A DNA stretch of 64,000 nt, from NCBI RefSeq assembly GCF_006483455.1, contig NZ_PPPU01000016.1, positions 62,001-126,000 of the forward strand. Reading direction: 5' to 3'. The notes beneath the pieces are model-generated. The model was given only the letters and a program-made list of their open reading frames with translations. It did not search any database and was not told where the DNA came from. A program made the position numbers and the translations under genes. Every line of letters starts with the position of its first letter. Within the stretch, counting starts at the first letter, position 1. This document shows, piece after piece, positions 26,397 through 64,000 of the stretch. The DNA comes from Methylomonas koyamae. Lineage in GTDB: Bacteria; Pseudomonadota; Gammaproteobacteria; Methylococcales; Methylomonadaceae.

Positions 26397-26456
26397 AACC
26401 ATTGAACAGTAATAGCAAAAATCCATGTTTTTTCTTACCAGACTTTGGGGAGCAAT

Positions 26457-27901: not shown

Positions 27902-28708
27902 TCAACTACCTCTCAACCGGTGCGGCAACCATTCGCAAAAGCACGTATCCAGTTCCGGCCCGTCGCCACGGCCAAAAGCCAACGCCAAAATATGCTCCGG
28001 CCCCGGATAGCTTTGCGCGAATTGCCAAGCGGGGGCCTCTTCCGCGCTACTAGGACGGAAATAGATGGTTTTATCCTCGCCAAAAGCAAACCCAAACCGG
28101 TCCAGCTCTTGCGACAGGCCGGTGCCTTGGGCTTTGATGTAGGCTTCCTTCAGCGTCCAGAATTTCAGAAACGCCCAATTCCGTTCCGCTGCCGGCAAAC
28201 GCCAGAGATATTCCCGTTCGGCTACGGTCAGTACCTGGCCGGCTATCGCCGCCAGATCGCCCAAATCGCGCCTAGCCTCGACGTCGATTCCGCAATCCGC
28301 ACCGCAATTGACCACTAGCGCCGCCAGTCCGCGCGCGTGGGACAGGTTGAAGCGGACGTCGGCCATGCCCGGTTTGCGGACCAATTCCGGGCGGCCATAA
28401 CGATTGGCGGTAAACCGCAATTTGTCCGGCTCGGTATCCAGATAAGCGGCCAACACGAATCTGACCATGGCGTGAGCCACCAGATACAACTGGCGGTCGC
28501 GCTCGAAATAAAACTTCCGCCACTTTTCCAGCTCGTCCTCGGCCAGCAGATTGCGGCAAATTTCCAGCGTCTCCGGATCGGCGAAACGCTCGGTCCAGGC
28601 CAGCCAGACTTGCGCCCTCCCCGGCGTTGGCGCCGGAACCAACGGAAACCGTTGCCTTAAATCCGCGAAATTCGGCAGAGCGCCAGACCCTGCGTTATCC
28701 ATGCTCAT
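27902..28708 (-). CDS. Sfp-type 4'-phosphopantetheinyl transferase
   Basis: This 268-residue enzyme transfers phosphopantetheine from CoA to the serine of carrier domains. The two signature motifs are present: GIDVE (Asp142, Glu144, magnesium binding) and WTLKEAYIK at 184-192. An upstream NLSHARGLAAL segment is also typical. It is the last gene of the large biosynthetic unit, 10 bases after the barrel gene, and is the obvious activator of the ten carrier domains I count upstream. It appears complete. Confidence 0.95.
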   Translation of the reverse strand: MSMDNAGSGALPNFADLRQRFPLVPAPTPGRAQVWLAWTERFADPETLEICRNLLAEDELEKWRKFYFERDRQLYLVAHAMVRFVLAAYLDTEPDKLRFTANRYGRPELVRKPGMADVRFNLSHARGLAALVVNCGADCGIDVEARRDLGDLAAIAGQVLTVAEREYLWRLPAAERNWAFLKFWTLKEAYIKAQGTGLSQELDRFGFAFGEDKTIYFRPSSAEEAPAWQFAQSYPGPEHILALAFGRGDGPELDTCFCEWLPHRLRGS

Positions 28709-28718
28709 CTGCCGGCGC

Positions 28719-30008
28719 TCAGTCGAAGTAATATTTCACACCCAGGAAATAGATATTGTTCAGATAACCGCCGAACTCGGTATCGCTACCGCCCAGATTG
28801 AATACCAGATTGGCGGCCAGATTGACCTGTCCGAACAGGTTGTACTCGACAATCGGTACCAGTTGTGCGCCGCCGTCCTGCAGGTTTTGCGAATACAGCA
28901 CATTAAGGCTGAGGTCTTCGACGATTTCGTGCACCCGGTAATTGGCGTAGAGGTAATGCTGATTCAGCGAGCGGATTTGCACCGACGAGGCCTGGGCCAG
29001 GGTGCCGGCGGCCAAGCCTTGCAAATTGGGGTCGGCCCCCAGCAGCAACCCGGCCGCGTTCTGGGCCATACGCCGGTAAGCGGCGCTGTCGGCATTGTTG
29101 TAACCTTCGTTGCTGTGACGGTATTCCAAATTCAATACGTCGCCGTTGTCGAAGGTATAGGAACCGCCGGCCAGGAAGTCGACGAACCAGCCACGGCCGT
29201 TGCCGTTCGGCGCCAATTCGTAGCCCAGCGGCGAATCGGATGCCTGCGGATACAAGCCGTAGCTTTTACCTTTCATGCCGACGTCGAAATACAGCAGCGT
29301 CGAATCGTTCAGCGTCCACTGGCCGAACATGCCGCCCTGGGGCAGGCCGTCGTTTTCGCGGTAGCCGGCAATCGCGCTCAGCGAATAATCGTCGCCGCGG
29401 TGGTCGTATTTCAGCGCCACGGTTTTCTTGAAATCCGGCGTTTCCAGCGTCGACCGGCCCCGAGCCAGACTGCCGATCAGCGCCAGCGTGTTGGAATAAT
29501 CGTGAAAATACTGCAATTGCACGAAATCCTGGGCGCCGGGTTCGATGAAGGGATTGGTCTGGTTGCTGTTCGGGAAGAACGGGTTGGAGGGCGACGCGAA
29601 CAACGACGGCCCCCAATACAGCAATTCGCGGCTATAGGACAGGCTGAGATCGTCGGTCGCGTATTGAGCCAGCCAATCCTGGAAATAATGCTCGCCGGCC
29701 ACGACGTTGCCGCCGTCGGCCTGATTGCTTAAAAAGTAACCGAAGCGCGGGCTGAGCTTGGCGCTGAAGCCGCCGTAACGGGCGGTGAATTTCGACCGCA
29801 GCCGGGTACCCTGCTGAAAATTGTCCAGTTGCGCCAGCTGGTTGTCCGGATTCAGATTGCTGTTCTTGGCAATATCGTAAATCGCACCGAAGCTTTGCAG
29901 CATGAAGCTGTGTTCGAACTCGAATTTGTCGGCTGCGGCGGCGATGCCCGGCAGCGATACGGCCAGCAACGCCGGCCGCAAGCCGCGCAGAACATTCCCC
30001 GAAGCCAT
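28719..30008 (-). CDS. Outer membrane beta-barrel protein of the export system
   Basis: This 429-residue protein has a signal peptide ending near AAAAD and a body of amphipathic strands with many aromatic and Asn/Gly turns (such as FGYFLSNQADGG, LSYSRELLYWGPS). It ends in GVKYYFD, close to the aromatic C-terminal signal of outer membrane proteins. The layout recalls DUF1302-like barrels, which often sit next to LolA-like proteins, but I cannot confirm the family. It follows the LolA-like gene by 6 bases. In this operon it probably receives the product or supports its exit through the outer membrane. Confidence 0.7.
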   Translation of the reverse strand: MASGNVLRGLRPALLAVSLPGIAAAADKFEFEHSFMLQSFGAIYDIAKNSNLNPDNQLAQLDNFQQGTRLRSKFTARYGGFSAKLSPRFGYFLSNQADGGNVVAGEHYFQDWLAQYATDDLSLSYSRELLYWGPSLFASPSNPFFPNSNQTNPFIEPGAQDFVQLQYFHDYSNTLALIGSLARGRSTLETPDFKKTVALKYDHRGDDYSLSAIAGYRENDGLPQGGMFGQWTLNDSTLLYFDVGMKGKSYGLYPQASDSPLGYELAPNGNGRGWFVDFLAGGSYTFDNGDVLNLEYRHSNEGYNNADSAAYRRMAQNAAGLLLGADPNLQGLAAGTLAQASSVQIRSLNQHYLYANYRVHEIVEDLSLNVLYSQNLQDGGAQLVPIVEYNLFGQVNLAANLVFNLGGSDTEFGGYLNNIYFLGVKYYFD

Positions 30009-30014
30009 CGGCCG

Positions 30015-30764
30015 TTAGCGGCTGAGCAAGGCCCGCAAATCGAAACGGCTCGGCGGCACCGCCGCGGCTTCGACTTTGTCGTAAACCAACACGGTTTTCT
30101 GGCCGGTTTGCACCTCGTCCTGAATTTCGATTTTGCTGACGAAAGGCTGGTTCTTGCCGGCAACCTCGACCCGGTTGGCATATTCCATCAATGCGGTTTT
30201 GAAATGCTTGTCGGAAACCGTCATGTATTCGGCTTTCAATGCCAGTTGGCTGTCCTTGGCGACGTAATATCTGATCTTGTCGTAGGCCACGTTGGCATCC
30301 TTGGCTTTCAAGTCCAGTACGTAACACGGCTGCCCTGCCACTTCCGCTTCGCCGGCCGGGGTCGCGTCGTAATCGCGACTGTAATTGGTGGTGGCGACGT
30401 CGCCGTTGCTGGCCTCGCCGAGCAGGCGTTGCCGCGGCGAAATCGGCACCGGCTTGCTGACGTCGGGCGACAGGAACCACATATTCCGGTTCTGCATCAG
30501 CATCATCTTGCCGGCGGATGTGGCCGGTTTCAGGAAGGTAACCAACGAGTTGTCCTGGTCGGCCTCGATCTTCAGCGTGTAGCTTTTATCCTCGACATTG
30601 TCCTGGTAGGCGATGACGGTACTGGTCATGGTAATACCGCCGATCTCGCCGCCGCGGGCACGGTCGCTGGCTTTTAAAAGCTCCAGCGGCGTCGGGTCTG
30701 CGGCCGCAGCCGAAGCCGCCAGCATTAATATTGCAAATAAAGGGGTGCGGACGAATTCAAACAT
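30015..30764 (-). CDS. LolA-like periplasmic lipid/lipoprotein carrier (COG2834 type)
   Basis: The ATG at 30764 overlaps the permease gene by 8 bases. The 249-residue product has a signal peptide (ILMLAASAAAAD). It then has a LolA/VioE-type half-barrel pattern found in outer membrane lipoprotein-sorting protein relatives: RARGG, repeated strands with MTSTVIAYQ, FLKPATSAGKMML, NMWFLSPDVSKPVPISPRQR and CYVLDLKAK. Such proteins carry hydrophobic cargo across the periplasm in an open barrel. Placed between an ABC permease and an outer membrane barrel, it is a good candidate carrier for the lipopeptide made by this cluster; that is inference. Confidence 0.8.
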   Translation of the reverse strand: MFEFVRTPLFAILMLAASAAAADPTPLELLKASDRARGGEIGGITMTSTVIAYQDNVEDKSYTLKIEADQDNSLVTFLKPATSAGKMMLMQNRNMWFLSPDVSKPVPISPRQRLLGEASNGDVATTNYSRDYDATPAGEAEVAGQPCYVLDLKAKDANVAYDKIRYYVAKDSQLALKAEYMTVSDKHFKTALMEYANRVEVAGKNQPFVSKIEIQDEVQTGQKTVLVYDKVEAAAVPPSRFDLRALLSR

Positions 30765-31998
30765 GGCCCAGGGCTCCGACAATGGTTTTTTGCGTGGCGT
30801 GGCGGGCCGGGAAATACGAAGCGACCGCGGCCAACACCGACAGAGTGAATAAAGAACCGAACATGTTATTAAACAACAATTCGATCACCAGCGCGGCTTG
30901 TTCCGAAGAATCAGGCGGCGAATAAGTAATCTGCGCCAGATTGATGCCGGCACCGATGGCATAGGATAGCGCCATCCCGGCCAGCGAGCCGACGAAGACG
31001 ATGATGACGCCTTCGATCACGAACAGGCTCTTGATCGTCATCGAGCGCATGCCGATCGCGCGCAAGGTGCCGATTTCGCGGGTGCGTTCGGCAATCGCCA
31101 TCGTCATGGTATTAACCACGCTGGTCATCGCCACCATCACCACTACCACCATGATGAACAAATACATCATGTCGAACAGGCCTTTGACTTGAGTGTAATA
31201 CACCGACAATTCGCTCCATTCCTTGATGTCGGCGTCGAAGCCGGCAGCCTTGAGTTTTTCCAGCAACACCGGCTTTACGGCCGGAATCGAATCGACCGAA
31301 TCCAGCAATACCACGACCCGGTCGGCGCCGTCGCTGCCGTACAACTTACGGGCCAAGGCCAACGGCAATAGCGCGAACTTGTCGTCGGTGCCCATCGAGC
31401 CGGTGTTGGCGATTTCGCCGACCCGGAAATCGACCGCGTTGACCATGCCGGACAGCGTCGACGCCATCAACACGCCGTCGCTGCCCTGCTGCAAGCCCAT
31501 GATCTTCGCCATCTTCTGGCCGATCACGGCGGCATCGTCCTGGCCCGACGTCAATTTGCCGGGCAGGTGGGCGTATTCGGCGCCGCGCAGCGCCGTCTGG
31601 TCTTCCGCCGATATCGCTTCGCCGATGAAAATATGCGAGGTGGTGCCGTTACTGACCAAGCCGCTGACGGCCAGCCGCGGGCTGACCAATTTCACGCCCG
31701 GCACCTCGCGGACGGTGCGGGTCACCAAGTCCAGCGCGGCGGCATCGAGTTGGAATTTTTCCGGGTCCAGCGTGCCCTGGTCGAAGAAGCCGCGGCGCAC
31801 CACGGTCAAGTGGCCCAGGCGTTCGCCGACGATGGCCTGGTCTTTCAGAATCCGGTAGACGTAGGTGAAATAACCTTCGAACAAGCTCAGCGCCAGAAAG
31901 CCGATCGCCACCGACAGCACGGTGACCAGACTTCTGCGCCGGTTTTTCATGACGTTGCGCGCCGCCAGTTTGCAGCGCATTGCGAGTGACATGGACAT
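30757..31998 (-). CDS. ABC transporter permease, FtsX/MacB/LolE type
   Basis: This 413-residue protein has one membrane helix near 22-42 after a basic N-terminus (ARNVMKNRRRSL), a periplasmic domain of about 230 residues, and three membrane helices in the last third. The family motif TREIGTLRAIGM lies after the second helix. This four-helix layout is shared by MacB, LolC/E and FtsX, which extract or push substrates in the periplasm rather than pumping through a channel. Its ATG overlaps the ATPase stop by one base. Together with the LolA-like gene next to it, this points to Lol-like extraction of a lipidic product. Confidence 0.9.
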   Translation of the reverse strand: MSMSLAMRCKLAARNVMKNRRRSLVTVLSVAIGFLALSLFEGYFTYVYRILKDQAIVGERLGHLTVVRRGFFDQGTLDPEKFQLDAAALDLVTRTVREVPGVKLVSPRLAVSGLVSNGTTSHIFIGEAISAEDQTALRGAEYAHLPGKLTSGQDDAAVIGQKMAKIMGLQQGSDGVLMASTLSGMVNAVDFRVGEIANTGSMGTDDKFALLPLALARKLYGSDGADRVVVLLDSVDSIPAVKPVLLEKLKAAGFDADIKEWSELSVYYTQVKGLFDMMYLFIMVVVVMVAMTSVVNTMTMAIAERTREIGTLRAIGMRSMTIKSLFVIEGVIIVFVGSLAGMALSYAIGAGINLAQITYSPPDSSEQAALVIELLFNNMFGSLFTLSVLAAVASYFPARHATQKTIVGALGHV

Positions 31999-32708
31999 CA
32001 GGAGGCCTCTTTTAAATAAGTATTGTGGCGGTCGTCGACGATCCGGCCGTCTCGGACCTGGATCGAGCGGGCCGCGTAGGACAGCAAATGGGTATCGTGG
32101 GTGGCAAACACAAAGGTGACCTTGCGTTTCTGATTCAGCTTTTGCATCAACAAAATGATCGCGTCGCTGTTGGCCGAATCCAGATTCGCCGTCGGTTCGT
32201 CGGCCAGCACGATATCCGGATCGCCGATCAAGGCCCGGGCGATGGCCACCCGCTGGCGTTGGCCGCCGCTCATTTCGTCCGGCCGTTTGTGCAAATGCCG
32301 CTCCAGACCCAGTTCCGCCAGCAGATCGCGCGCCCGGCGCCGCGCCGTATCGTCGGCTTCGCCGCGGATTTGCAGCGGCAGCATCGTGTTTTCCTGGGCC
32401 GACAACACCGGCACCAGATTGAAGCTTTGGAAGATAAAGCCCAGATGACGGCTGCGGAAATCGGCCAGCCGATTGTCGTTCAGCCCCAGGACTTCTTCGT
32501 TTTTGATTGCGATCCGGCCCTGATCCGGCCGGTCCAACAGGCCCATCAGGTTCAATAGCGTCGATTTGCCGCTGCCGGAAGCGCCCCAGATGCAGGTGAA
32601 CTCGCCTTGCTGGATCGACAGGTTCAAGTCCTGCAGCACGTTGACGGCGCCATCGCCGTGGCCGTAGGACTTGGTGATATGTTCCAATTTGATGATCGGT
32701 TGCGTCAT
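31998..32708 (-). CDS. ABC transporter ATP-binding protein (LolD/MacB type)
   Basis: The ATG at 32708 gives 236 residues beginning MTQPIIKLEHITKSYG, the usual start of this family; an upstream ATG at 32726 in the same frame is possible but has no better ribosome site. Walker A GASGSGKS is at 42-49, the signature MSGGQRQR and Walker B DIVLADEP follow, and the H-loop is THDTH. It powers the permease encoded immediately downstream. Together they form one half-transporter pair that probably exports the cluster product or hands it to the periplasmic carrier. Confidence 0.93.
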   Translation of the reverse strand: MTQPIIKLEHITKSYGHGDGAVNVLQDLNLSIQQGEFTCIWGASGSGKSTLLNLMGLLDRPDQGRIAIKNEEVLGLNDNRLADFRSRHLGFIFQSFNLVPVLSAQENTMLPLQIRGEADDTARRRARDLLAELGLERHLHKRPDEMSGGQRQRVAIARALIGDPDIVLADEPTANLDSANSDAIILLMQKLNQKRKVTFVFATHDTHLLSYAARSIQVRDGRIVDDRHNTYLKEAS

Positions 32709-32727
32709 AACTAGTAGTCTCGTCATT

Positions 32728-33534
32728 TTAAAAGACCGGTTCGTAACCGGCTGCGGCAGGAGTCCGCGCCATCGGCAGCAGGATATCGTTCTTGATATGC
32801 TCGTTGACGATGTCCTGAAGCGCGCCCAGCACGGCGGCGCGGTTCTCCAGTAAAAAGAAGTGGCCGCCGCCGAACAGGCGCTGCTCGAAGCCGGCCGCGG
32901 TTTTGTCGCGCCAGGGCGCCATGTCCTCGCCCGGCACCAGATGGTCGGCCATGCCGGTGAAGGCCGCGATCGGGAATTGGGCCGCCGGTTGCGGCGCGTG
33001 GCGGTAAGTTTCGTGGATGCGAAAATCGGCGCGCAGCATCGGCAACAACAACTGCATGGTTTCATCGTGTTGCAACACCTCGTCCGGCGTGCCGCCGTAG
33101 CGTTGCAATTCGACGATGAATTCACTGTCGCTCAGCGTATGCAACACCCGGTTGCGGCTGCTAAGCTCTGGCGACCGGTAGCCGGAAACGATCAGTTGTT
33201 TCGGCGGCCGCACCCCGCGGCGCTCCAGCTCCAGCGCCACCCGGTAGGCGATCAACGCCCCCATGCTGTGGCCGAACAGCAGATAGGGCCGGTCGATCCG
33301 CGCGATCAGCGCCGGCAGCAAGCCGGCGACCAACGCGTCCAGATCGCCGATCGCCGGTTCGGCGATGCGGCGTTCGCGCCCCGGCAACTGCGCCGCCAGC
33401 ACGTCCGCGTTATCCAGCGCGCCGGCCCAACTGCGAAACACGTTGGCGCCGGCCCCGGAATACGGAAAGCAGACCAGCAGATACGGCGCGCGGCCGCCCA
33501 GATTAAAGTCGGTAAACCAATTGTCGGTAGTCAT
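32728..33534 (-). CDS. Type II (editing) thioesterase
   Basis: This 268-residue alpha/beta hydrolase is of the type found in NRPS and PKS clusters. It has FPYSGAGANVFRSW near the start, nucleophile Ser90 in GHSMGA, Asp in GMADHLVP and His in GGGHFFLLEN. Such enzymes remove stalled or wrong acyl groups from carrier domains. No chain-terminating thioesterase domain exists in the assembly line here, so this protein is for repair, while release is assigned to the reductase domain of the last NRPS. It lies 24 bases after the DUF711 gene. Confidence 0.94.
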   Translation of the reverse strand: MTTDNWFTDFNLGGRAPYLLVCFPYSGAGANVFRSWAGALDNADVLAAQLPGRERRIAEPAIGDLDALVAGLLPALIARIDRPYLLFGHSMGALIAYRVALELERRGVRPPKQLIVSGYRSPELSSRNRVLHTLSDSEFIVELQRYGGTPDEVLQHDETMQLLLPMLRADFRIHETYRHAPQPAAQFPIAAFTGMADHLVPGEDMAPWRDKTAAGFEQRLFGGGHFFLLENRAAVLGALQDIVNEHIKNDILLPMARTPAAAGYEPVF

Positions 33535-33558
33535 CGCTATGTCTTGGTAGTAATCAAA

Positions 33559-34848
33559 TCAAGCCGGTAACGCGGTCGGCGCCCAGCGTCGGGGATCGAA
33601 AAAGGCCTCGCTATCGTTGGCCGGCGCAAACGCGTTGCGGTTCAGCGCAATCGGCCGGGTGTTGACGATAAACGGATGGTTGAAATTGGTTTCGCCGTTG
33701 GCGCCGACGCTGCTAGGCAACAGGCGGGTAATCAACGGCTTGTTCCATTTGATGGCTTCGGTGCAAATCGCTTCGATCAAGGCCGCGATCTGGCCGACGC
33801 CGACGTCCAACGCCAGCGGCACCATATCCAGACCGCAGCCGCACACCGTAGAGTACAGCAGCAAATCCTTGACATCGACGCTACCGTTGCCCACCGCCCG
33901 CGCCAGATGGCTGTCTTCCAACACCGACAGCATGGTGCCGTTGTAGCCGACCTGCGGAAAATCGGCCAAGCCCTGCTTCAGCAAATTGTTCACCGCATAC
34001 AGCGAAAACAGGAATTGGAAACTGCCGACCGGACTGCCGGCCAGCGCCTCGATCGCGCTGACGGCGCTGGTGTCCTCGCCGGGGTAAGGTGCCAGCGAGA
34101 AATCGATACCGCGAAAACCGACGCCGGTTTCGGCGGCCAGCGCCTCGGCGCAATCGGCCGCCTCCCACGCCGCCCGCCGCACCTGATTGCGGAATACCGC
34201 CAGTTTCTCGTCGAACGGCAAGGGCTGCGAAAACGCGGCGTTGGCCAGTTCCGACAACTCCAGCGCAATGCTGAATCCGGCCTCGCCCTGGTGCCAGGAC
34301 GCCGGAAAAAACGGCGTACTGGCCTGGACGTTTGACATCACCGCAAACCGGAAATTGGCCTGATGCTGTTGGTCCAGCATGGCCAGTTCCCGCACCACCG
34401 CAGCGGCCCGGCGCAACGCGCCGCGGTGCATGCCGGCCGCCGAACTGACCAAAGTATTCATGAATACGTGGCGGGTGGCGCCGATCACGGCCGGCACCAG
34501 CGCCAGCAATTCCGGGTCGTCGGCCGCATCGACGAAAAACGGGCCGGGCATGCAGAACCAGATATCGCCCAATGCATTCTCCATCCGCACCGCAAATTCG
34601 GCCACGGCATTGGCCCGAATTCGGCGGCCTTGCAGCAAGCGGTCCAGCGGTTGCCCGGCCAGCCGGAAACAACGCGCCCGCAGGCCGCTTTCCGCCAAAC
34701 GGTTGCCGGCCTTCCCGAAAAAGCGCCGCGCCGCTTCCGCGCCGCGCTCGGGCTGATCCGGGTCCAGGTTCAGCCCCAATGTCACGGTGCGCACCACCGG
34801 CGACGGCGGCCGCGTTCCGAATTCTTCCTGAGCAGTCATCGGTTTCAT
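33559..34848 (-). CDS. DUF711 (UPF0210-like) family protein within the NRPS-PKS operon
   Basis: The ATG at 34848 overlaps the MbtH stop (ATGA). The 429 residues carry segments typical of the DUF711 family: LGLNLDP near the start, FRGIDFSLAPYP in the middle, YNGTMLSVLED, and CGCGLDMVPLALDV in the last third. The family has no established reaction to my knowledge, and the sequence lacks signal peptide or membrane segments. Its position between MbtH and the type II thioesterase, in an unbroken operon, says it serves this pathway. It may be a tailoring or precursor enzyme. It is intact in length. Confidence 0.75.
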   Translation of the reverse strand: MKPMTAQEEFGTRPPSPVVRTVTLGLNLDPDQPERGAEAARRFFGKAGNRLAESGLRARCFRLAGQPLDRLLQGRRIRANAVAEFAVRMENALGDIWFCMPGPFFVDAADDPELLALVPAVIGATRHVFMNTLVSSAAGMHRGALRRAAAVVRELAMLDQQHQANFRFAVMSNVQASTPFFPASWHQGEAGFSIALELSELANAAFSQPLPFDEKLAVFRNQVRRAAWEAADCAEALAAETGVGFRGIDFSLAPYPGEDTSAVSAIEALAGSPVGSFQFLFSLYAVNNLLKQGLADFPQVGYNGTMLSVLEDSHLARAVGNGSVDVKDLLLYSTVCGCGLDMVPLALDVGVGQIAALIEAICTEAIKWNKPLITRLLPSSVGANGETNFNHPFIVNTRPIALNRNAFAPANDSEAFFDPRRWAPTALPA

Positions 34849-35036
34849 AGCGTTCTCAAGCTCAACGGCCGGATGTCGGGCCAATTTCGATTGACATAGT
34901 CCAAACAGTTTTCCCGGCTGTCGGCAGGTTTGACCTGCTGCCAACCGGCGGGCACCGGCTTGAAAGCCGGCCATAAGGCGTGTTGCTGTTCGTGGTTGCA
35001 GACCACGACGAAACCCGTTTCCAATTCTTCAGCCAT
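34845..35036 (-). CDS. MbtH-like protein
   Basis: This 63-residue protein starts at the ATG at 35036, with GGAG 10 bases upstream; an earlier ATG sits too close to that site. It shows the MbtH pattern: NHEQQHALWP, VPAGW, a conserved Cys and Tyr (CLDYVNRNW) and DIRPLSL. MbtH proteins bind adenylation domains and are often needed for their folding or activity. It directly follows the last NRPS gene, so it probably serves the adenylation domains of this cluster. Confidence 0.95.
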   Translation of the reverse strand: MAEELETGFVVVCNHEQQHALWPAFKPVPAGWQQVKPADSRENCLDYVNRNWPDIRPLSLRTL

Positions 35037-35091
35037 AGCGACCATTCTCCAATTCTTAATTTAAGTTCAATGCCTGCGGGCGACCGCTTCG

Positions 35092-38000
35092 CTAAAACCA
35101 GCCGCGGCGTTTAAAGGCAACCTCGCGGCCTTCGCTAACGAACAAGCGCTCGATGTAACGTTGCCAGGCCAAGCGATCGATCTGCGGCGCCGGCAGATCC
35201 AGCTCGGCCAGCCGGCGCAGGGTTTTCGCCTGGCCGATCTGCAACCGGCCCTTGTCCGGCGCGGCGTTGTCGGTATCCCAATAAAACAGGTAGGGCGCGA
35301 ACGGCAACGGGGTTTCGGTCGAAGCCTGCTTGACCCGGTCTACCCAATGGTCGGCGCGGATGCGTTTCAGGCCGACGCTGCCGGCCACGTGCTGGGACAG
35401 CAATTTGCTCCAGTCGTAGCTTTCTTCGCCCATCAAATGGAATATTTCGCCGCCGCCGGGCTGTCCGGCCAAGGCAATAATCGCCCGCGCCGCGTAATCC
35501 ACCGGTATCGCCTTTTCGACCAGCGGGTAATCCGGATAGACCCCGAGCTGGATGCAGGTGCGCAGATACAAGCCGATAAAGTCGTCGTCGCGGCCGGCAC
35601 CGCTGCGGCTGTCCACCGCCACCCGGCCCAGACGGAAAATCTGGATCGGCAGGCCCATGCGACCGGCTTGCCTGACTGCCGCTTCCGCCACCCATTTGCT
35701 GGCGTTGTAGCCTTCCAGATCGGTAAAGCCTTCGCCGGCCAGATCGGTGTCTTCGTCGACTTTCCGCCCCGAGATTTCGGTGTTGAACACGCCACCGGTC
35801 GAGACGTAGGCGAATCGTTTCAAGCGGTTGTAGGCAGCCAATTCCAGCAGGGCCTTGGTCGAACCGACGTTGGCCGCGGCCAATTGGCCGTAGCGCAACA
35901 CGTGGTTCAGATGCGAGCCGTTATGCAGAATCAAGTCGATTTCCGAGGCCAGGTAATCGCGCACCTCGCCGCTCAAGCCGAGGTTGGGCTTGGCCAAATC
36001 GCCGACCACCACTTTGATCCGCGGCGCATAGCCGTCCCACCACAGGCCGTATTCCTCCAGATTGGCCCGAATCCGACGCAAGCCGTCTTCGGCCGAGCCG
36101 GCGCGTACCAGACAGTGCACCGTGGTACCCGGCCAGCGTTCCAGCATTTGTTCCTGCAAATAAGCGCCGACGAAACCGGTAACACCGGTCAGCAACACGT
36201 TTTGCATCCTGCCGCTGGCCGGCGGCAATGGCGTCGGCAGCGCAATGGCGGATTCGGTTTCCAAATCCACCGGCCGCGGCGGCAACAGAATCGCAGTGTC
36301 TTCCGCTTCGGCTTGGGTGTCCGCCCCGGCCGCATCCAGATAGGCCGCCATGCTGCGCACGGTCGGCGCCACGAAAAAGTCTTTCAGCGGCATCGAGCGC
36401 CCGCTCTGCTCCCGCACCTGCGCCATCAAGCGGGTCGCGCTCAGCGAATGGCCGCCCAGTTCGAAAAAGTCGTCGCTGACGCCGACCGTGTCGACGCCGA
36501 GAATCTCCTGCCACAATTCGACCAGCCAGCGCTCGCGCTCGGTTGCGGCCGGTTCGCAAACCCGGCTCGCCGGGTCGGCCGCGCCCGGTAACGGCAGCGC
36601 CCGGCGGTCGATCTTGCCGTTGGTCGTCATCGGCCAGACATCCAGCACGATTACCGCCATCGGCACCATGAAATGCGGCAAGCTTTCCCGCAGCCTTGCC
36701 ATCAGCTCCGCGGCCAAACCGTCGGCGCCGGCTTCGCACAGCACGTAGCCGACCAATTGCCGGTTGCCGGCATCGATATCGCGCACCAACACCAGCGCGT
36801 CGCGCACCCGCTCGTGCTCCATCAGCCGGGCTTCGATTTCGCCCAGCTCGATACGGAAGCCGCGGATTTTGATCTGGTTGTCGATCCGGCCCAGGAATTC
36901 GATGGTGCCGTCCGCCAGCCAGCGCACCAGGTCGCCGGTGCGGTACAAGCGCTCGCCGCTTTCGGGCCGGAACGGATGGGCAATGAATTTTTCGCCGTTC
37001 AATTCGGGCCGGTTCAGATAACCGCGGCAGACGCCGTCGCCGCCGATACACAATTCGCCCGGCACGCCGAGCGGCACCGGCCGCAGTTTGGCGTCGAGAA
37101 TGAACAATTCGGTGTTGGCCAAGGCGTGGCCCAACGTCAATTTGGCATCGCCCGGCCGGTAATCGGCCGCCATGCAGATCACGGTGGTTTCGGTGGGACC
37201 GTAAGCGTTGAAAAAGTGCCGATTCGGGCTCCAGGCTTCGGCCAGCGCCTGTTGGTAGCCTTCGCCGCCGACCAGCAAATGGTCGAGGCAGGCCAGTTTC
37301 GCCGGGTCGAGATAGGCCAATAACGACGGCGGCAACAGCGCGTGACTGGTCGTCGCGGTAGCGACGAAATCGGCCAGCCGGTCCGGACTTTTGATCACGT
37401 CGTCGGCGGCCATGCACAAGCAACCGCCGTTGGCCAAGGCCACCGCCCATTCCCAGACCGAGGCGTCGAAACTGAACGAGGCGAACTGCAACATGCGGCT
37501 GCCGCCGCGAAAATCGAAGCGATTCGCCAACGCCACGCTGACCAGCGCTAGGTTGCGGTGTTCGATCAAGGTTCCTTTCGGCCGGCCGGTCGAGCCGGAG
37601 GTATAGATCACGTATGCCAACTGCTCCGGCAGCATGCCGGCGACCTGCGGTTCTTCGACCGATTCGCGGCCGATCGCTTCCCTCAAATATTCGCCGTCCA
37701 GCGCCAGCAAACGGATGCCGGCCGGTAGCGGGATGCGTTCGGCGATATGGCTGTGGGCGATCAACCAGCGGCAATCGGCATCCTCCAGCATGAATTGCTG
37801 CCGGTCCGCCGGATAGTTCGGGTCCAGCGGCACATAGGCGGCGCCGGATTTCAACACCGCCAGAATCGCCACGATCCAGTCGGGGCTGCGCTCCAGACAC
37901 AAACCCACCCGCAATTCGCTGCCGGCGCCCAGCCGGATCAGGAAATGAGCCAGCCGATTGGCCCGCCGATTCAACTCGGCATAACTGATAACGCTATCCT

Positions 38001-42615: not shown

Positions 42616-42630
42616 GGCTCTATCAACTCG

Positions 42631-49272: not shown

Positions 49273-49322
49273 GTGCTTTGCTTCCGTTGTCTATGTTTCG
49301 ATGAAATTGGCGGCAGGCGGGC

Positions 49323-53417: not shown

Positions 53418-53444
53418 CTCGTTGTCTCCAGTTAACCCGTTGGC

Positions 53445-56400: not shown

Positions 56401-59400
56401 TCGCTCAATGCGGCGCGCAACGAGTCGTGCCGGGCCACCACGCCGCGAAAGGCCTGCTCCAGTTTGTCCCGCTCCGGAGTTCCGGCCAGCTCGAACAGCA
56501 CCACTTCGTTGTAAGCCGCCTGCACTTCCTCGCTCAATTCCAGATGCACCAGGATGTCCTGCTGCGCGCCATTCAGCGGCAATGCGGCCGGCGCCTGCGG
56601 CAGCCGCGCCGTGATAACCGCCTGATAACCGGCATGGACTTCGGCGGCGGCTTCGATGAAGCCGGCGCGTTGCAGCAAATCGGTCCAGGCGGCGGCCGGC
56701 AGCAACGGATAGTCGGCGCGTAACGTGCTGTCCTGAAACGCCCACCAGCCGTCGGTCAGGCCGAAGATCAAGTCCAGCCAGGGCTGGCGACCGACGCATT
56801 CCAACAACAACAAGCGGCCGTTCGGTGCCAGCAGGCTGTGCAGATGGCTCAGGGTTTTGCCCAGATCGGCGGTCGCATGCAGCACGTTGGAGGCCACGAT
56901 CAAATCGAAACTTTGCCGGACAAAACCCTGCTCGGCCGGGTCGCGTTCGATATCCAAGGTGGCGAATTCGAGCTGCGGGTAGGCGGCGAATTCGCGCTCG
57001 GCGCGGTGTAAAAAGGCGCTGGACAGGTCGGTAAACAGATAGCGCAGGTCGCGGCGGCTCAGGCCGGGCAACAGTTGCGCGGTGGCCGAACCGGTGCCGG
57101 CGCCGACTTCCAATACTGAGGCTTTGCCTGAGACGTCGGCAACGGCAGCCACCGCCGCCCGCGCCAGAGCCACATTGGCCGCGGCAGCGCCGGGGGCGTG
57201 GCGGTAAAGCCGTTGCAGCAAGGCGTAGTTTTCACCGCCGAACAGCACTTCCGCCGCATCGCTGCGGCCGCACAGCACGGCCGGCAACGCGGCGGCACAC
57301 TGCAGCAATAAGTCGACTGCGGCGGCGTCGGCCGAACTGCGCGCCTCGCGTTCCAGATCCGCGGTCGCCACCGGCAGCGATTGCAGCAACTCCCAGTCTT
57401 CGCCGACGGCGCGCAGCCAGCCGGCTTCGTTCAACATCGCAAACAGACGGCCGAACAGGCGGCGGCGCTTAGGCGCCACGCCAATAGCGCTAGCGGCGCG
57501 TTCGACCTGGCAAACACCGCCGACTTGGCCCGGCAAGGCATGCAATTCCCGCAAGGCCTGAGCCGCCAACGCGGTCGCCAGTGCATTTAATGCCTGGGCG
57601 CCAGCTTCGCTGCCGGCCGTGTCGCGGCTGGCCGGCATTGGCGATCCGGCCGGCGGCGGGAAGAAGCCGCCTTGGCGCAGGGCCTGCGCCGATTCGCGCC
57701 CGGCGCGGACGATAAAGTCGACGTCGGCCTCGCTATGGGCGCTGCTGAGGAAGCAGGTGTGGCCTTCCCAGATATACACGCCGCGCAGCGTCATGTGGTA
57801 GAAAAACAGATTGGCTTCGATGGGCTGGAATTCGACGCTGTAATTGTCGAAAAACACGAAGCGGAACAAGGAGCCGGCGTGGTTGACCCGAATCGCGAAA
57901 CCCTCGGCGGCGAAATAGTCGTTCAATTCCTGTACCAGCCGCGCAGTCTTGGCGGTGATGCCGGCTTGCAAGGCCGGGCCGGCATCGCGCAACTGGCGCA
58001 GTACCGCAACGGCGGCGGCCATGGTCAGCGGATGGCCGCTGAAGGTGCCGGCAAAGAAAGTCGCGGTGGCCGCCGGATAAGAGTCGTCGTCGAATTGCCA
58101 GGGGCCGCCGTCGATTGCGTTCATGAAGCGGGCGTTGCCGGCGACGATGCCGATCGGCATGCCGCCGCCGGCCACCTTGCCGTAAGTGACCAAGTCGGCG
58201 CGGACGCCGAAATATTCCTGGGCGCCGCCCGGCGCCAAACGAAAACCGGTGATGATTTCGTCGAATATCAACGCGCAACCGGCGGCGCTGGCGATTTCCC
58301 GCAAGCGCTGCAGAAACTCGCGCGGTTGCAGGCCGGGCCGCCGGCTTTGCACCGGCTCGACCACGATGGCCGCCAGTTCGCCGGCATGCCGCTGGATCGT
58401 TGCCAGCGCGGCCTCGTCGCCGTAGGCCAGCACGATGGCGTCCTGCGCTACCGAGAGCGGCACGCCGGGCGCGATCGGCAAACCGCTGCCACCCTCGCCG
58501 CCGGCCTTGACCAGCATGGTATCGGAATGGCCGTGGTAAGAGCCGGCAAAGCGGACGATGCGGGTGCGACCGGTGACGGCGCGAGCCAGCCGCACCGCGG
58601 TCATCACCGCTTCGGTGCCGGAATTGGCGAAAGCCACCCGTTCGCAACCGGTCAGATCGCGCACCAACTGCGCCGCCTCGCCGACCAGAGGGCTTTTCGG
58701 CCCGACCTGGATGCCGTCCGCCAGCTGGGCGGCCAGGGCTTGCTTGACCAACTCCGGGTTGTAGCCGAGCAGGCTGGAACCGAAGGCCATGGTCAGATCG
58801 ACGAATTCGTTGCCGTCCAGGTCGTAAATCCGGGAACCTGCGGCGGTTTTGACTACCAGCGGGAAGATCATCGCTTTGGTCGCTTGGCGGAAACCAAGCG
58901 AACTGCGGTAATCGGCGAACACCTCGCGGTAGGTTTCGGCGTAACGTTTCGAGCCGGCGTGCTTGGCCTGGTAGGCGGCGGCCAGTTCGCGCAGATGTTG
59001 CTGTTGCGCCGGGTTCAAGCCTGCCGCCGCGGCATTGCCGGCGGCCGGCAACGGCGTTGCCGGCCGCAAAGCCGGAGTTGCTGCCGGCACCGGACTGGGG
59101 CTGGATGCCGGCACGACAGGCGCCGGTTGCGACTGCGAAGAGACGCCGCCGCGCAACAAGCCGAGTTGGTCTTGCACCAGGCGGTTGAACGCATCCAGTT
59201 GCCGCTCCAGCAAACCGTGCCAGTCGCCTGGCGCGGCGGCGCCGGGTGCGGCAAACGGCAACGGCGCCTGTTCCGATTCGGCCGGCGCCGGTAATGCCGC
59301 GGCGGCGGCCGGCTCGGCGTCGAGTTTCGGGCTGGCGGCGGCAATCGCCGGCGCCAGCGTGTCGATGCTGGACAACTCGGCAAACAGGCGCGCCATCCCG

Positions 59401-62400
59401 ATGTCGACCGCATAACGTTCGCTGACCAGGCGCAACAGTTCGGTCAACACCAGCGAGTCGGCACCCAATTCCAGGAAACTGCGCCGGTTGTCCAGTTCAC
59501 CGGCCGGGCGTTTCAGCAACAGGCCGAGCTGGCGTTGCAACCAGCTAGCGACAGCCGTAGCGGCAGCGACGTCCGCTGTCTCGGCACCGGCCGGCGAAGT
59601 AACGCCCTGCTCTGCCAGCCAGGCGGCCAGCGCCTGCAGGCTACGCAAGTCTTCGAATAAACTGTGAATCGCAACTTGCACGCCGAAACGGCCCTGCACC
59701 TGACGCAGAAACTCCACCAGTACCAGCGAGTCGGCGCCCAGTTCCAGGAACGAGCGGTTGGGGTCGATGTCATCGGTTGCGCATTTCAGCAATGGGGCTA
59801 GTAAACGGGCAAGTTCGCCGGTCGTGGTGGTGGCGGTCGCGGTCGTCATGGGTGTCCTGGTGGTAGGTTGGAGCCAAAAACGGCTGGGTTGAAACGGATA
59901 GCCGGGCAAATCGAGCTGGTCGAAGGTTTCGCCGGCCCAAGCGGAGCCGAAATCGACGCGGTAACCGGCGCGCCACAGCTCGGCCAGGGCCGAATTCAGC
60001 GCCAGCCAGTCCGGGCGCTGCGCATCCAGGCTCGAGACGACGGCCGGGGCCGGGTCGAAGCGACGCAGCATCGGGGCCAATGCCGGTTGGGCGCCGATCT
60101 CCAGAAAGGTGCCGACACCTAACGCCTCGGCGGCGGCGATGCATTCTCTAAAGCGTACCGGTTGGCGCAGATGTTCGACCCAATAGTCGGCGTCGAAGCG
60201 CGCTACCGGCGCCGCGTGCAGGTTGCCGATCACCGGCAGCCGCGGCGCTTGCCACGCCACCTGATTGGCGACGGCGCGGAATTCTTCGAGTATCGGTTCC
60301 ATGTCGGCGCTGTGAAAAGCGCGCTTGACCTTCAACGGCAGCACGGCGATACCCGCAGCCTTGGCGCGTTCGGTCAGCGCTTCCAGCGCCGGCAGCGGAC
60401 CGGAGACCGTGACCTGGGCCGGGCCGTTGTCGGCCGCCAGCGCCAACGCCGGGTCGGCGGCGATCAGTTCCAGAGCGGCGGCCTTGCCGGTCAGCATCGC
60501 CAGCATGCCGCCGCGGTCGGAACAGCGCTGCATCAGTTGCGCGCGCAACACCACCAGCCGCAAGGCATCGGCCAGCGACATCGCCCCGGCAAAGCAGGCG
60601 GCGACGTATTCGCCCAGACTGTGGCCGACCGCGACGGCCGGCGCCAGGCCGCAGCTTTCGAAATAGCGCGCCAGCGCATAGCCGACCACGAACAACGCCG
60701 GTTGCGCGGTCGCGGTTTCGGCCAGATGGTCGTGATCCAGCGCATCCGGGCCGAACAACAACGGCGCCACCGGCGCCATTCCGGCGCCGCTCAATAACAG
60801 ATCGCATTGGTCGACCGTGGCCCGGAACACCGGCGCATGCGCGTACAATCCGCGGGCCATGCCGGCATATTGGCTGCCCTGACCGGTGAACAGGAAGGCC
60901 AGCGGTTTCGGCGTACCGGCGACAACCGCCGGCCCAGCCTGACCGCTTTGCGCCAGCCGGGCCAGGCCGGCCAGCAATTCGCCGCTGTCGGCGGCATGCA
61001 ACACGCTACGGTAAGGCAAGCCGCTACGGCCGCGGTTGGCCTGATAACACAGGCTGGCCCAGCGCTCGGCGCCGGCTTGCAGAAAATCCAGGTATGCCGC
61101 AGCCAACGCCGCCAAATCGGCCGGCCGCTCTGCCGACAACAACAAGGCGTAATGCGAACGCTGCGGCCGCTTAACGGCGGCAACGGCCGGTTCCGCCCGG
61201 CGCAGCACGACGTGGGCGTTGCTGCCACCGAAGCCCATCGACGTCACGCCGATGTGGCGTAGCGGCTGTTCTGTCGCGAAAAGGCGCAGCTCGGTATTGA
61301 CCGCCAGCGCCTTGGCATCGAAGCGGATGTGCGGATTCAGCGCACTGAATCCGGCCAGCGGCGGTACGGCATTGTGTTGCAGGCACAACACGGCCTTGAT
61401 CAGGCCGGCAATGCCCGCCGCAGCTTCGAGATGGCCGATGTTGGCTTTGACCGAACCGATCAGGCAGGGCCGCTCGCGGCCGGCGCCGACCACCTCGGCC
61501 AGGGCGCCGGCTTCGATCGGATCGCCCAACGCGGTGCCGGTACCGTGCGCTTCCAGATAATCGACCGTATTCGGCTCCAGTTTGGCGGCGGCATAGGCCC
61601 GGCGTAACAAGGCGCGTTGGGCGACGCCGTTCGGCGCGGTCAGGCCGAAGCTGTGGCCGTCCTGGTTGATCGCGCTGCCAGCGATGTACGCCAGCACCCG
61701 ATTGCCGCGCGCGGCCGCCAGCGTTTCCCGGCGCAACACCACCAGCCCGACGCCTTCGCCGCGCACGTAACCGTCGGCTGCGGCGTCGAAACTGTGGCAG
61801 GCCGCCGTCGCCGACAGCATGCCGGCCTTGCCCAGCGCGCGAGTCAAGGCCGGATTCAGCATCAAATTGACGCCGCCGACCAGAGCGGTGTCGCATTCGC
61901 CGGCCAGCAGGCTTTGGCAGGCCAGGTGCACCGCCACCAACGACGAGGAACAGGCCGTATCCACCGCCAGGCTGGGACCGCGCAAGTCCAGAAAATAAGA
62001 AAGCCGGTTGGCGGCGATACTGGCGGCGGTACCGGTGCCGGCGTGGCCGTCCAGGCTGCTGTCGCTGCGCCAGGCCAATTGGCCGTACTCCGAACCGCTG
62101 ATGCCGATGAACACGCCGGTAGCGGAGCCGGCCAATTCCTCGCGGGAAATGCCGGCCTGTTCCAGCGCGGTCCAGGCCGCGGTCAGCAGCAAGCGCTGCT
62201 GCGGATCGAGTATCTCCGCCTCTTTCGGCGAAATATGGAACGGCGCCGGATCGAACAGGTCGATGCCGTCCAGCCAGCCGGCGGCGCCGAGCGCGTCGAC
62301 ATCGTCCACCAAGCCGGCCAGCAAGGCCTTGCGCTCGGCGGGTAGCGGCCGCACCGCGCTGGTGCCGGAGCGCAGTAAATCCCAGAACGCCGCGGTGTCG

Positions 62401-64000
62401 TCCGCCCCCGGAAAGCGGCAGGCCATGCCGACGATCGCGATGTCGGCATTCGCTTCGGCGCCGGATTCGCTGGCGACCGTCTCGGCTTCGCCGCGGCACA
62501 AATACTCAACGACCCGGTCGATGCTGGGATAGTCGAACAATAAATTGGCCGGCAAGCCGCCGCAGCCGAAGGCTTTTTCCAGTTCGTCGGTCAGGCGCAC
62601 GGATAAATTGGAATCCAGACCGAATTCGCCGAACGCGGCATCGCAACCGATTTCGGCCGGCTCCAGACCGGACACTTCAGCTACCCGCTGCCGCAACCAG
62701 GCGCGCACCGCCTCGGCGTCGGGCCGGGTTGCGGCGGCGCCGGATTCGGTTGGCGCCAATTGCCGTTCCAGATTGCGATTGATCCATTGCGCCAACGGCT
62801 GCAAGCTGCGTTGCAGGAAACCGCGCTTGGTTGCCGCGCGCTGGATTTTGCCGCTGGTGGTTTTCGGGATCGCACTTTCCCGCAACAGCGCGATGGCGGC
62901 GGTTTGCAGCTCGTGGCCGTCGGCCACCGCCTTGCGGATGGCCGCGAACAATTCCTGCGCATGCTGCTCGGGCTTGAAGCGGCGCGAGGTCTCGGCGACC
63001 ACCACCAGGCGTTCCTCGCCGTCGGCGGTGACGGTAAAGGCCGCGGCGCCGCCCATCTTCAATAACGGGTGGGCCTTATCCACCGTCCATTCGATATCCT
63101 GCGGATAATGGTTTTGGCCGCGGACGATGATGACATCCTTCAAGCGGCCGGTGATGTAGAGTTGATCGGCGTATAAAAAGCCCAGGTCGCCGGTGCGCAT
63201 CCAGCGCCGGCCGGAATCGTCGCCGGCCACACAGGCGTGAAAGGTGGCCTGGGTCTGCTCCGGATTTTGCCAATAGCCCGGCGATACCGCACCGTTACGC
63301 ACCCAGACTTCGCCGACCCGGTCGGCCGGGCATGGCGCCAGGGTATCGGGGTCGACAATCAGCAATTCGGTATCGGCAATCGGATAGCCGCTACCGGCCA
63401 GCGACAATGCCGACGGCTCGTCGGCGCTGGCGAATACCAGCCGGTTGCGTTGCAATTCGGCGGCGCGGACCCAGACTTCTTCCGCCGCCGGCCGCTCGTG
63501 CCGGTGCTGGCCGCTACCGGCGTAGTGCAGGCCGGTAACGATACAAGCCGCTTCCGCCAATCCCCAACTGGGGCTGAACACGCGGAAATCGAAGCCCGCC
63601 GCGGCGAAGCGTTCGGCGAAGGCGCGCATGGTCTGCATCCTGACCGGTTCGGCGCCGTTCAGCGCGTGTTGCCAGCGGCTCAGGTCCAGCCCGGCCAATT
63701 GCTCGTCGCCGACGCCGTGCAGGCACAGGTCGAAGGCGAAGTTCGGGCCCATGGTATGGGTGATGCCGAAGCGGCTGATCGCTTCCAGCCAGCGCGCCGG
63801 CCGTTGCACGAAGGCGGCATTGGGCAGGATGTAACAGGCCATGCCGCAATAGACCGGCGTCAGCAGGCCGTAAATCAGGCCCAGATCGTGAAACGGCGGC
63901 AGCCAGGTCAACAATCGGGACTCGGCGCTGTGGACCCCACTGCGGTCGAAGTACTGCATGTTACACATCAGGTTGGCGTGGGTCAGGATCACGCCCTTCG
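53445..64000 (-). CDS. Hybrid starter NRPS-PKS, FAAL-ACP-KS-AT-ACP-ACP-AMT-cMT-C-A-T, 5' truncated
   Basis: The frame is open to the right edge, so the first part of the acyl-AMP ligase lies outside. Counting from 63992, the order is: FAAL to about 380 (LPPFHDLGL); ACP near 457 (GLDSNLS); KS 517-950 (DTACSSS); AT 1034-1340 (GHSLGEY, R-A-F-H, malonyl-like); two ACPs near 1419 and 1510, both LGADSLVL; class III aminotransferase 1690-2110 (PLP Lys in TYGKVAG); methyltransferase near 2294 (VLEVGAGTG, C-methyl type); C with HHMIIDG near 2600; A with D-L-Y-N-N-A-L-T-Y-K, close to an alanine code; and T near 3444. No ketoreductase is present, which fits transamination of the beta-keto group. It resembles MycA and McyE. 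Confidence 0.94.
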   Translation of the reverse strand, partial: KGVILTHANLMCNMQYFDRSGVHSAESRLLTWLPPFHDLGLIYGLLTPVYCGMACYILPNAAFVQRPARWLEAISRFGITHTMGPNFAFDLCLHGVGDEQLAGLDLSRWQHALNGAEPVRMQTMRAFAERFAAAGFDFRVFSPSWGLAEAACIVTGLHYAGSGQHRHERPAAEEVWVRAAELQRNRLVFASADEPSALSLAGSGYPIADTELLIVDPDTLAPCPADRVGEVWVRNGAVSPGYWQNPEQTQATFHACVAGDDSGRRWMRTGDLGFLYADQLYITGRLKDVIIVRGQNHYPQDIEWTVDKAHPLLKMGGAAAFTVTADGEERLVVVAETSRRFKPEQHAQELFAAIRKAVADGHELQTAAIALLRESAIPKTTSGKIQRAATKRGFLQRSLQPLAQWINRNLERQLAPTESGAAATRPDAEAVRAWLRQRVAEVSGLEPAEIGCDAAFGEFGLDSNLSVRLTDELEKAFGCGGLPANLLFDYPSIDRVVEYLCRGEAETVASESGAEANADIAIVGMACRFPGADDTAAFWDLLRSGTSAVRPLPAERKALLAGLVDDVDALGAAGWLDGIDLFDPAPFHISPKEAEILDPQQRLLLTAAWTALEQAGISREELAGSATGVFIGISGSEYGQLAWRSDSSLDGHAGTGTAASIAANRLSYFLDLRGPSLAVDTACSSSLVAVHLACQSLLAGECDTALVGGVNLMLNPALTRALGKAGMLSATAACHSFDAAADGYVRGEGVGLVVLRRETLAAARGNRVLAYIAGSAINQDGHSFGLTAPNGVAQRALLRRAYAAAKLEPNTVDYLEAHGTGTALGDPIEAGALAEVVGAGRERPCLIGSVKANIGHLEAAAGIAGLIKAVLCLQHNAVPPLAGFSALNPHIRFDAKALAVNTELRLFATEQPLRHIGVTSMGFGGSNAHVVLRRAEPAVAAVKRPQRSHYALLLSAERPADLAALAAAYLDFLQAGAERWASLCYQANRGRSGLPYRSVLHAADSGELLAGLARLAQSGQAGPAVVAGTPKPLAFLFTGQGSQYAGMARGLYAHAPVFRATVDQCDLLLSGAGMAPVAPLLFGPDALDHDHLAETATAQPALFVVGYALARYFESCGLAPAVAVGHSLGEYVAACFAGAMSLADALRLVVLRAQLMQRCSDRGGMLAMLTGKAAALELIAADPALALAADNGPAQVTVSGPLPALEALTERAKAAGIAVLPLKVKRAFHSADMEPILEEFRAVANQVAWQAPRLPVIGNLHAAPVARFDADYWVEHLRQPVRFRECIAAAEALGVGTFLEIGAQPALAPMLRRFDPAPAVVSSLDAQRPDWLALNSALAELWRAGYRVDFGSAWAGETFDQLDLPGYPFQPSRFWLQPTTRTPMTTATATTTTGELARLLAPLLKCATDDIDPNRSFLELGADSLVLVEFLRQVQGRFGVQVAIHSLFEDLRSLQALAAWLAEQGVTSPAGAETADVAAATAVASWLQRQLGLLLKRPAGELDNRRSFLELGADSLVLTELLRLVSERYAVDIGMARLFAELSSIDTLAPAIAAASPKLDAEPAAAAALPAPAESEQAPLPFAAPGAAAPGDWHGLLERQLDAFNRLVQDQLGLLRGGVSSQSQPAPVVPASSPSPVPAATPALRPATPLPAAGNAAAAGLNPAQQQHLRELAAAYQAKHAGSKRYAETYREVFADYRSSLGFRQATKAMIFPLVVKTAAGSRIYDLDGNEFVDLTMAFGSSLLGYNPELVKQALAAQLADGIQVGPKSPLVGEAAQLVRDLTGCERVAFANSGTEAVMTAVRLARAVTGRTRIVRFAGSYHGHSDTMLVKAGGEGGSGLPIAPGVPLSVAQDAIVLAYGDEAALATIQRHAGELAAIVVEPVQSRRPGLQPREFLQRLREIASAAGCALIFDEIITGFRLAPGGAQEYFGVRADLVTYGKVAGGGMPIGIVAGNARFMNAIDGGPWQFDDDSYPAATATFFAGTFSGHPLTMAAAVAVLRQLRDAGPALQAGITAKTARLVQELNDYFAAEGFAIRVNHAGSLFRFVFFDNYSVEFQPIEANLFFYHMTLRGVYIWEGHTCFLSSAHSEADVDFIVRAGRESAQALRQGGFFPPPAGSPMPASRDTAGSEAGAQALNALATALAAQALRELHALPGQVGGVCQVERAASAIGVAPKRRRLFGRLFAMLNEAGWLRAVGEDWELLQSLPVATADLEREARSSADAAAVDLLLQCAAALPAVLCGRSDAAEVLFGGENYALLQRLYRHAPGAAAANVALARAAVAAVADVSGKASVLEVGAGTGSATAQLLPGLSRRDLRYLFTDLSSAFLHRAEREFAAYPQLEFATLDIERDPAEQGFVRQSFDLIVASNVLHATADLGKTLSHLHSLLAPNGRLLLLECVGRQPWLDLIFGLTDGWWAFQDSTLRADYPLLPAAAWTDLLQRAGFIEAAAEVHAGYQAVITARLPQAPAALPLNGAQQDILVHLELSEEVQAAYNEVVLFELAGTPERDKLEQAFRGVVARHDSLRAALSEDRSQVVIGQEPDTTLVEADFSDLPAALAEAKAREWVLARSAEPFDLTRPPLIKAFLARLGDDRYWLLFLAHHMIIDGISYGLLIQEIVEFYRHLRDGSALALPRPVTLAEANRRVAAQRPQDREFWLQQFGQGVPALDLPTDYPRPPEQRFAAQRTCLVLDAEVAAQLKALTQRCNATPFMVMLAVYRLLLNRLSGQQRSVIGVPVSMHGDRPSESFIGFGVNVLPIVGNSDSQATFADYLQQAKHDFLQAFEHRGFPFAELVRAVNPERDPSRPALVSAVFNYEAVGALAGGGLRFTPLVPPSAHTKYELTLDVVADASQTVLVLTSNTALFAADTAERLLARYAKLLAQLAAAPDTRLGGIDLLLDAEREGLGMNPPIAYDNRCLHHLFADQAELTPERIALRWHDTELSYRELDAQANRLAHLLQQHGVGVEDRVAVCLARGPQLVVALLAVLKAGACYVPVDPNYPAERRAVILGCAEAKLLIADTADAAISAAANAAPLLSPADPRLASCPDTAPASTVSPEHLAYIIFTSGSTGLPKGVAIEHRNAASMIDWAAQEFALPAGAGMLASTSVCFDLSVYEIFYPLAHGGKVVMVDNILHLPELARQDDIALINTVPSAMEEILRQRAVPASVRTINLAGEALPLALVQGIQQHYPDVAVYNLYGPSEDTTYSTFVRFPEGFQGPVTIGRPIAGSQLYLLDADLNPVPAGGKGEIYLAGNGLCRGYFGNQVGTAAAFLPDPFSATPGARMYRTGDLGRLNPDGMVEYLGRSDFQVKIRGHRIELGEIETVLAQVPGVQRAVVIADGEPGRQRLLAFYSAETELGDALKQTATAKLPAFMVPGVCIRLAEFPLSPNGKIDRRQLAQLAHGQEAAEAAPGGQLPRNALESEIAAIWAEHLQLDSIHIGDDFFALGGHSLLATQILYEINRRHGCRLRLTDIMKHPTVAELAEAVLEHALQDSPDLQALLAELVRDGAELAAS

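Follow-up and report, generated by a model that had tools for sequence, protein, structure and literature searches.

A predicted thiazole lipopeptide operon with a terminal reductase and a Lol-like transport cassette in Methylomonas

In the starters of iturin/mycosubtilin (MycA) and microcystin (McyE), an aminotransferase is embedded in a PKS that leads into C-A-PCP domains, and the cysteine modules of epothilone, myxothiazol and bacillamide share a thiazole-forming Cy-A-Ox-PCP organization. To our knowledge, few natural products of methanotrophs have been described. The lxa cluster for laxaphycins and scytocyclamides opens with a FAAL-ACP, KS and AT-ACP-AMT start that provides a beta-amino fatty acid, according to passages of PMC7524897. 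The locus analysed here joins elements of these systems in one operon, and the titles and passages returned by a literature search (including those of PMC11964084) contain no description of this cluster or of such a product. We read the operon, with a probability of about 0.72, as one dedicated to making and exporting a thiazole lipopeptide, the product with its chain length, release state and activity being predicted.

Layout, conservation and surroundings of the operon

The operon comprises twelve minus-strand genes that extend from position 27902 of the window (the whole 64,000-base stretch analysed, contig bases 62001-126000 of a 4.54-Mb genome) to contig position 126607, which is 607 bases past the window end at 64000. 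The megasynthases follow the order FAAL-ACP-KS-AT-ACP-ACP-AMT-MT-C-A-PCP / Cy-A-Ox-PCP / KS-AT-KR-DH-ACP / C-A-PCP-C-A-PCP-R, and the remaining genes encode an MbtH protein, a DUF711 protein, a type II thioesterase, four transport proteins and a PPTase. All the named domains were found in the operon proteins with Pfam. The first-pass annotation had described a complete-looking operon with spacing of at most about 55 bases. Its genes are real and the spacing held, with several genes overlapping and the largest gap being exactly 55 bases once the MbtH gene is placed at 34845-35036 and the starts of the DUF711 and ABC genes at 34848 and 32726, but the operon is not complete within the window, the first gene beginning 607 bases beyond it. 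The proposed domain order was mostly right, except that the PKS has its KR before its DH and carries an extra C-terminal decayed epimerization (E) domain, and that the starter end was missing.

The catalytic motifs searched for by pattern are in place in the window's proteins. This check covered five proteins in each of four genomes, with the starter and PKS proteins of one genome (G012) partial at contig ends; some matches to the DH and carrier patterns were due to chance, and the last PCP was read straight from the sequence. None of the five proteins, within the same sample, contained an internal stop.

The operon is also conserved in the Methylomonas genomes G207 and G002 and, split over two contigs, in G012. 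In G207 and G002, tblastn recovered all 12 genes almost from end to end, the G002 PPTase from residue 24 onward. The genome of a second Methylomonas species, G002, shares 86.7% nucleotide identity with the operon over one 36,187-base alignment; the PPTase lies outside it, in a piece with 76.3% identity. The dN/dS values against G002 range from 0.05 to 0.21 across the 12 genes and from 0.03 to 0.28 across 30 domains or linkers, and the operon is under purifying selection as measured against this species. A pseudogene reading of the cluster was rejected on these values. It is likewise highly improbable that the cluster has decayed and fallen out of use through the loss of catalytic residues in one domain: the decayed E domain at 42631-43770 would fit such a history, but the near full-length genes in G207 and G002, the uninterrupted reading frames of the five proteins checked and the per-gene dN/dS all speak against it. 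Domains, motifs, conservation and selection together bear out the original observation of a predicted thiazole-lipopeptide operon with a reductase, and the cluster is a real, conserved and probably active orphan cluster.

Among the 311 genomes of the order (Methylococcales), the PKS is present at 88-100% identity in four, while 14 others have only matches at 41-51%; a contig of Methylomonas sp. SURF-1 matches it at 99% in the best segment. A wider contig search with six PKS peptide patterns, narrow enough that distant copies could be missed, yielded 11 loci, of which one was a Methylomonas copy; among the ten others, the same order was found in none of the eight annotated (two, L017 and L019, were left out of the annotation). 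The flank on the PPTase side differs among the four genomes, even between two of one species, with a single shared piece of 105 bases in G002 and G012, whereas on the opposite side sequence is shared with G207 as far as position 68682 and, piecewise, with G002, which points to rearrangement or movement at the PPTase end of the operon. A short interspersed repeat (window 27641-27709; matches of 57-69 bp) with copies on another contig (C4) adjoins this end, where the flanks vary.

Two AT-rich genes (25032-27605; GC3 0.28) without Pfam or PADLOC matches lie in the same part of the window. The first has a signal-peptide-like start and an HExxHxxGxxH motif, typical of metzincin proteases, and the second has a lipoprotein-like start. 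Farther away, at 5130-7018, a possible anti-phage pair is formed by an AAA ATPase, which has PD-T4-4-like matches (2.4e-32; 147 PADLOC families were matched), and a partner gene with weak matches (0.001-0.004).

The assembly line and the release of its product

The starter protein (53445 to 64000 plus 607 bases beyond, with its start at contig position 126607) is 3720 aa in full length, and Pfam resolves it into FAAL-ACP-KS-AT-ACP-ACP-AMT-cMT-C-A-PCP. It thus opens as FAAL-initiated beta-amino lipopeptide lines do, with FAAL, KS-AT-ACP and an aminotransferase. Its AT has RAFH instead of the HAFH pattern, and we take it as malonyl-type. The best solved relative of the methyltransferase is CurJ (208.8 bits), and this match, together with the retained NVLHAT motif, makes alpha-C-methylation likely. 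The methyl step had been anticipated as optional; the step itself stands, but CurJ-type C-MT motifs preserved in all four genomes do not suit the word "optional". The pocket code of the starter A domain, aligned to GrsA (1amu) as were the other codes of the operon, is DLYNNALTYK, which we take to be an Ala code, and each of the four A-domain codes is the same across the four genomes.

The thiazole module (49323-53417; Cy-A-Ox-PCP) has the hallmarks of a thiazole-forming NRPS: a Cy domain with the DxxxxD motif, an FMN oxidase that matches the NCBIfam SagB-type dehydrogenase and sits within the A domain, and a Cys-type code, DLYNMSLIW- (the tenth position lies outside the aligned stretch), presumably specifying Cys. 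Downstream of it, the PKS module (43771-49272; KS-AT-KR-DH-ACP by Pfam and motifs) has a malonyl-type AT, and no ER domain was found in it with Pfam.

The C-terminal 379 residues of the PKS protein (42631-43770) match no Pfam family and give no convincing match to a solved structure. A profile of three Methylomonas copies nevertheless aligned by hhalign with six E domains, picked from fetched loci, over the second half of the region, with a score of 37.6 and an E-value of 3.4e-4 at a probability of only 37.6%; the best of 100 column shuffles reached 21.3 and none of 12 other domain sets exceeded 21.1, which relates the region to E domains at the level of sequence profiles. The HHxxxDG motif, present in all six comparison domains, is absent from the window copy and from those of G207 and G002. 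The region has the highest dN/dS of the 30 domains or linkers (0.283, yet below 1, against G002). A structure model (mean pLDDT 37.4) lends no support to the E-domain reading. The C domain that follows the joint has the C domains of McyB, PvdL, bacitracin synthase 3, surfactin and TycB as its best solved relatives, and those of McyB, surfactin SrfA-C and TycB follow epimerization domains. The simplest reading is that the PKS-NRPS joint derives from a recombined NRPS joint in which a dead E domain was kept for docking; the most likely present role of this domain is that of a platform on which the next NRPS docks.

The terminal NRPS (35092-42615) has the Pfam architecture C-A-PCP-C-A-PCP-reductase. 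The code of its second A domain, DAWLLGAVIK, is one that we presume to be Leu-like. That of the first (39736-41238), DLKNLGTDLK, belongs to a residue that had been left unassigned, and the code can now be called homoserine-like: a passage of PMC7524897 reports that antiSMASH 4.1 recognises the laxaphycin code DLKNFGSDVK as homoserine, and the two codes are identical at only 7 of 10 positions, the other three being conservative. The final domain is an R domain (NAD_binding_4) and no C-terminal TE was detected with Pfam, which sets the line apart from the TE-made macrocycles of the iturin and laxaphycin type. With 268.1 bits against the NCBIfam Thioester-redct cut-off of 213.35, the domain scores as a terminal thioester reductase, and it keeps TGxTGFVG and YxxxK; the G002 copy was missed by one pattern, its sequence being GYNATK with Tyr and Lys retained.

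Comparison with solved structures placed the R domain nearest to MxaA (4u7w; 205.6 bits), followed by a PKS reductase (8v1x; 171.9), mycobacterial Nrp (91.7), carboxylic acid reductases (88.8 bits or less) and AusA (44.9 bits). The MxaA study reportedly concerns the making of primary alcohols, whereas the R domain of AusA forms aldehydes and carboxylic acid reductases stop at them. R domains release either aldehydes or alcohols, and some halt at the aldehyde, according to a passage of PMC12783407. Because MxaA is the best relative, with a study on primary alcohols behind it, and R domains are known to give either product, release as an alcohol would rank somewhat ahead of release as an aldehyde; sequence proximity of the R domain alone cannot settle the choice.

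A two-electron release, by which the product would be a free C-terminal leucinal acting as a protease or proteasome inhibitor, is accordingly a tentative alternative. It agrees with the retained TGxTGFVG and YxxxK motifs and with the R domains that stop at the aldehyde, and sits poorly with the distance to aldehyde-forming AusA and the carboxylic acid reductases compared with MxaA. The first-pass annotation had offered this activity as a reasonable guess, which finds no support here; the order it proposed (fatty acid, C2 unit, beta-amination, Ala, thiazole, enoyl unit, X, Leu-like residue and reductive release) fits both the domains and the pocket codes. An aldehyde might also be trapped by the free beta-amine at the opposite end of the chain, giving a macrocyclic imine or the amine formed on its reduction; imine capture is known from nostocyclopeptides and koranimine. 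The N-terminal amine is expected to be left free by the aminotransferase, and the line ends in R without a C-terminal TE, but no cyclisation enzyme is apparent, the nearest solved R domain is that of an alcohol former, and the chain would be stiffened by the thiazole and the enoyl unit; we regard such a product as quite unlikely.

Accessory genes and the Lol-like cassette

The MbtH-like protein (34845-35036; 63 aa; Pfam MbtH 1.2e-20) is encoded by a gene that overlaps by 4 bases with that of the DUF711/UPF0210 protein (33559-34848; 429 aa), which was assigned with Pfam, matches PDB 2ha9 (1.4e-15) and belongs to a PFL/RNR-like fold class. At E <= 1e-30, no DUF711 relative was found in the 397 other genomes of the window's phylum, and 5 of 72,556 plasmid records gave weak matches with 22-26% identity. 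The 20-kb surroundings of seven relatives, six from the 244 genomes of the phylum of a Nostoc MAG (L014) and one from a Chloroflexi MAG genome (L015), with two weaker matches left out, contained no match to the NRPS or PKS domains of this cluster. The type II thioesterase (32728-33534; Pfam Thioesterase 6.5e-49) has a GHSMG motif, and the operon closes with an Sfp/HetI-type 4'-phosphopantetheinyl transferase (27902-28708; Pfam ACPS 6.3e-17; 121.2 bits with the HetI model, cut-off 370).

Between these two genes lie four transport genes. The LolD-like ABC ATPase (31998-32726; 242 aa) and the LolC/LolE-like FtsX permease (30757-31998; Pfam FtsX and MacB_PCD) both fall below the NCBIfam cut-offs of the LolCDE lipoprotein sorting system (232.6 bits against 307.75 for LolD, and 96.2 against 362.45 for lolCE). 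The LolA-like periplasmic carrier (30015-30782) has no NCBIfam match and scores well above the cut-off of 30 bits for Pfam LolA_like (PF17131; 5.7e-38, 130.9 bits); the ORF, listed with a TTG start, probably begins at an ATG six codons further in, after which comes a signal-peptide-like stretch. The fourth gene (28719-30008), without a Pfam or NCBIfam family, encodes a predicted outer-membrane protein, recognised by eye from a signal-peptide-like start and the last residues YYFD. Of the 311 genomes of the order, 19 have homologues of this protein, four of these being this cluster, as do 5 of 369 class-level genomes, the window's own and G039 among them.

The cassette was compared with 21 other loci, one in G039 (L034) and 20 further stretches (L058-L077). 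The order LolD-LolC/E-LolA-like-outer-membrane on one strand was found in 18 of them; the G130 locus has its outer-membrane gene on the opposite strand, and contig ends truncate the loci of G176 and G638. A PKS-type ORF of more than 900 aa lies near the cassette at 12 of the 21 loci (three of these are known only from a KR before the stretch end) and a FabF-like KS of 397-542 aa at five more, so that 17 loci have one or the other and four have neither. Neither type occurred in five control stretches, which were shorter (9-20 kb) and came from only two genomes, four from the window's own contig. The 11 PKS-linked loci of the order probably represent one inherited family, and the 12 of 21 are therefore not independent cases of PKS linkage. 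At the G039 locus (L034, 1453-17999), genes for a PKS, a DH fused to a PPTase domain, a reductase, a sulfotransferase and radical SAM proteins surround the cassette, apparently forming a lipid cluster of its own in this genome, which belongs to the same order.

The similarity of the transport genes to LolCDE and LolA would also suit a role in lipoprotein sorting, or in the transport of another lipid, with their place in the operon due to chance. This is rather unlikely: the genes are inside the operon, with gaps of 10 bases or less among themselves and to the flanking genes, they are retained with it in all four genomes, and homologous cassettes adjoin other PKS genes. The cassette is probably a lipid-type exporter, to judge from these sequence comparisons.

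Proposed pathway and comparison with known systems

In the proposed pathway, the FAAL would load a fatty acid, the KS-AT would add a C2 unit, the C-MT would methylate its alpha carbon and the aminotransferase would convert the beta-ketone to an amine. Ala would be joined next, Cys would be added, cyclised and oxidised by the Ox domain to a thiazole, and the PKS module would contribute CH=CH-CO. The decayed E domain may then dock the next NRPS, which would add the homoserine-like and the Leu-like residue, and the R domain would use NADPH to release the chain reductively, either as an alcohol or as an aldehyde. MbtH, PPTase and type II thioesterase presumably support the assembly line, the DUF711 protein may tailor the product, and export of the lipopeptide would fall to the LolD-, LolC/E- and LolA-like proteins together with the predicted outer-membrane protein.

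If this is right, the operon offers a testable structure class for methanotroph natural products, a possible homoserine-activating A domain outside cyanobacterial laxaphycins, an example of a dead epimerization domain retained between PKS and NRPS, and a genetic entry point to a Lol-like lipid exporter found repeatedly next to PKS genes in methanotrophs.

The transport cassette resembles LolCDE-LolA sorting in its ATPase, FtsX-type permease and periplasmic carrier, which are related by profile, and differs in the unmet NCBIfam cut-offs, the single permease gene, the predicted outer-membrane protein and the PKS/NRPS linkage. The starter shares with those of iturin, mycosubtilin and microcystin an embedded aminotransferase followed by C-A-PCP; unlike them, the line has a C-MT after the aminotransferase, two tandem ACPs and reductase release. 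The Cy-A-Ox-PCP module is that of epothilone, myxothiazol and bacillamide, here within a beta-amino lipopeptide line, and the R domain has its best solved relative in the myxalamid reductase MxaA, the chain being different. The lxa cluster shares the FAAL-ACP/KS/AT-ACP-AMT start, and the code of its homoserine A domain resembles the homoserine-like one here, whereas lxa ends in a TE and makes macrocycles of 11-12 residues, as passages of PMC7524897 describe, and the present line combines a thiazole and an enoyl unit with release by reduction. The cluster is a variant of these known hybrid PKS-NRPS lipopeptide lines, with a likely Lol-like exporter.
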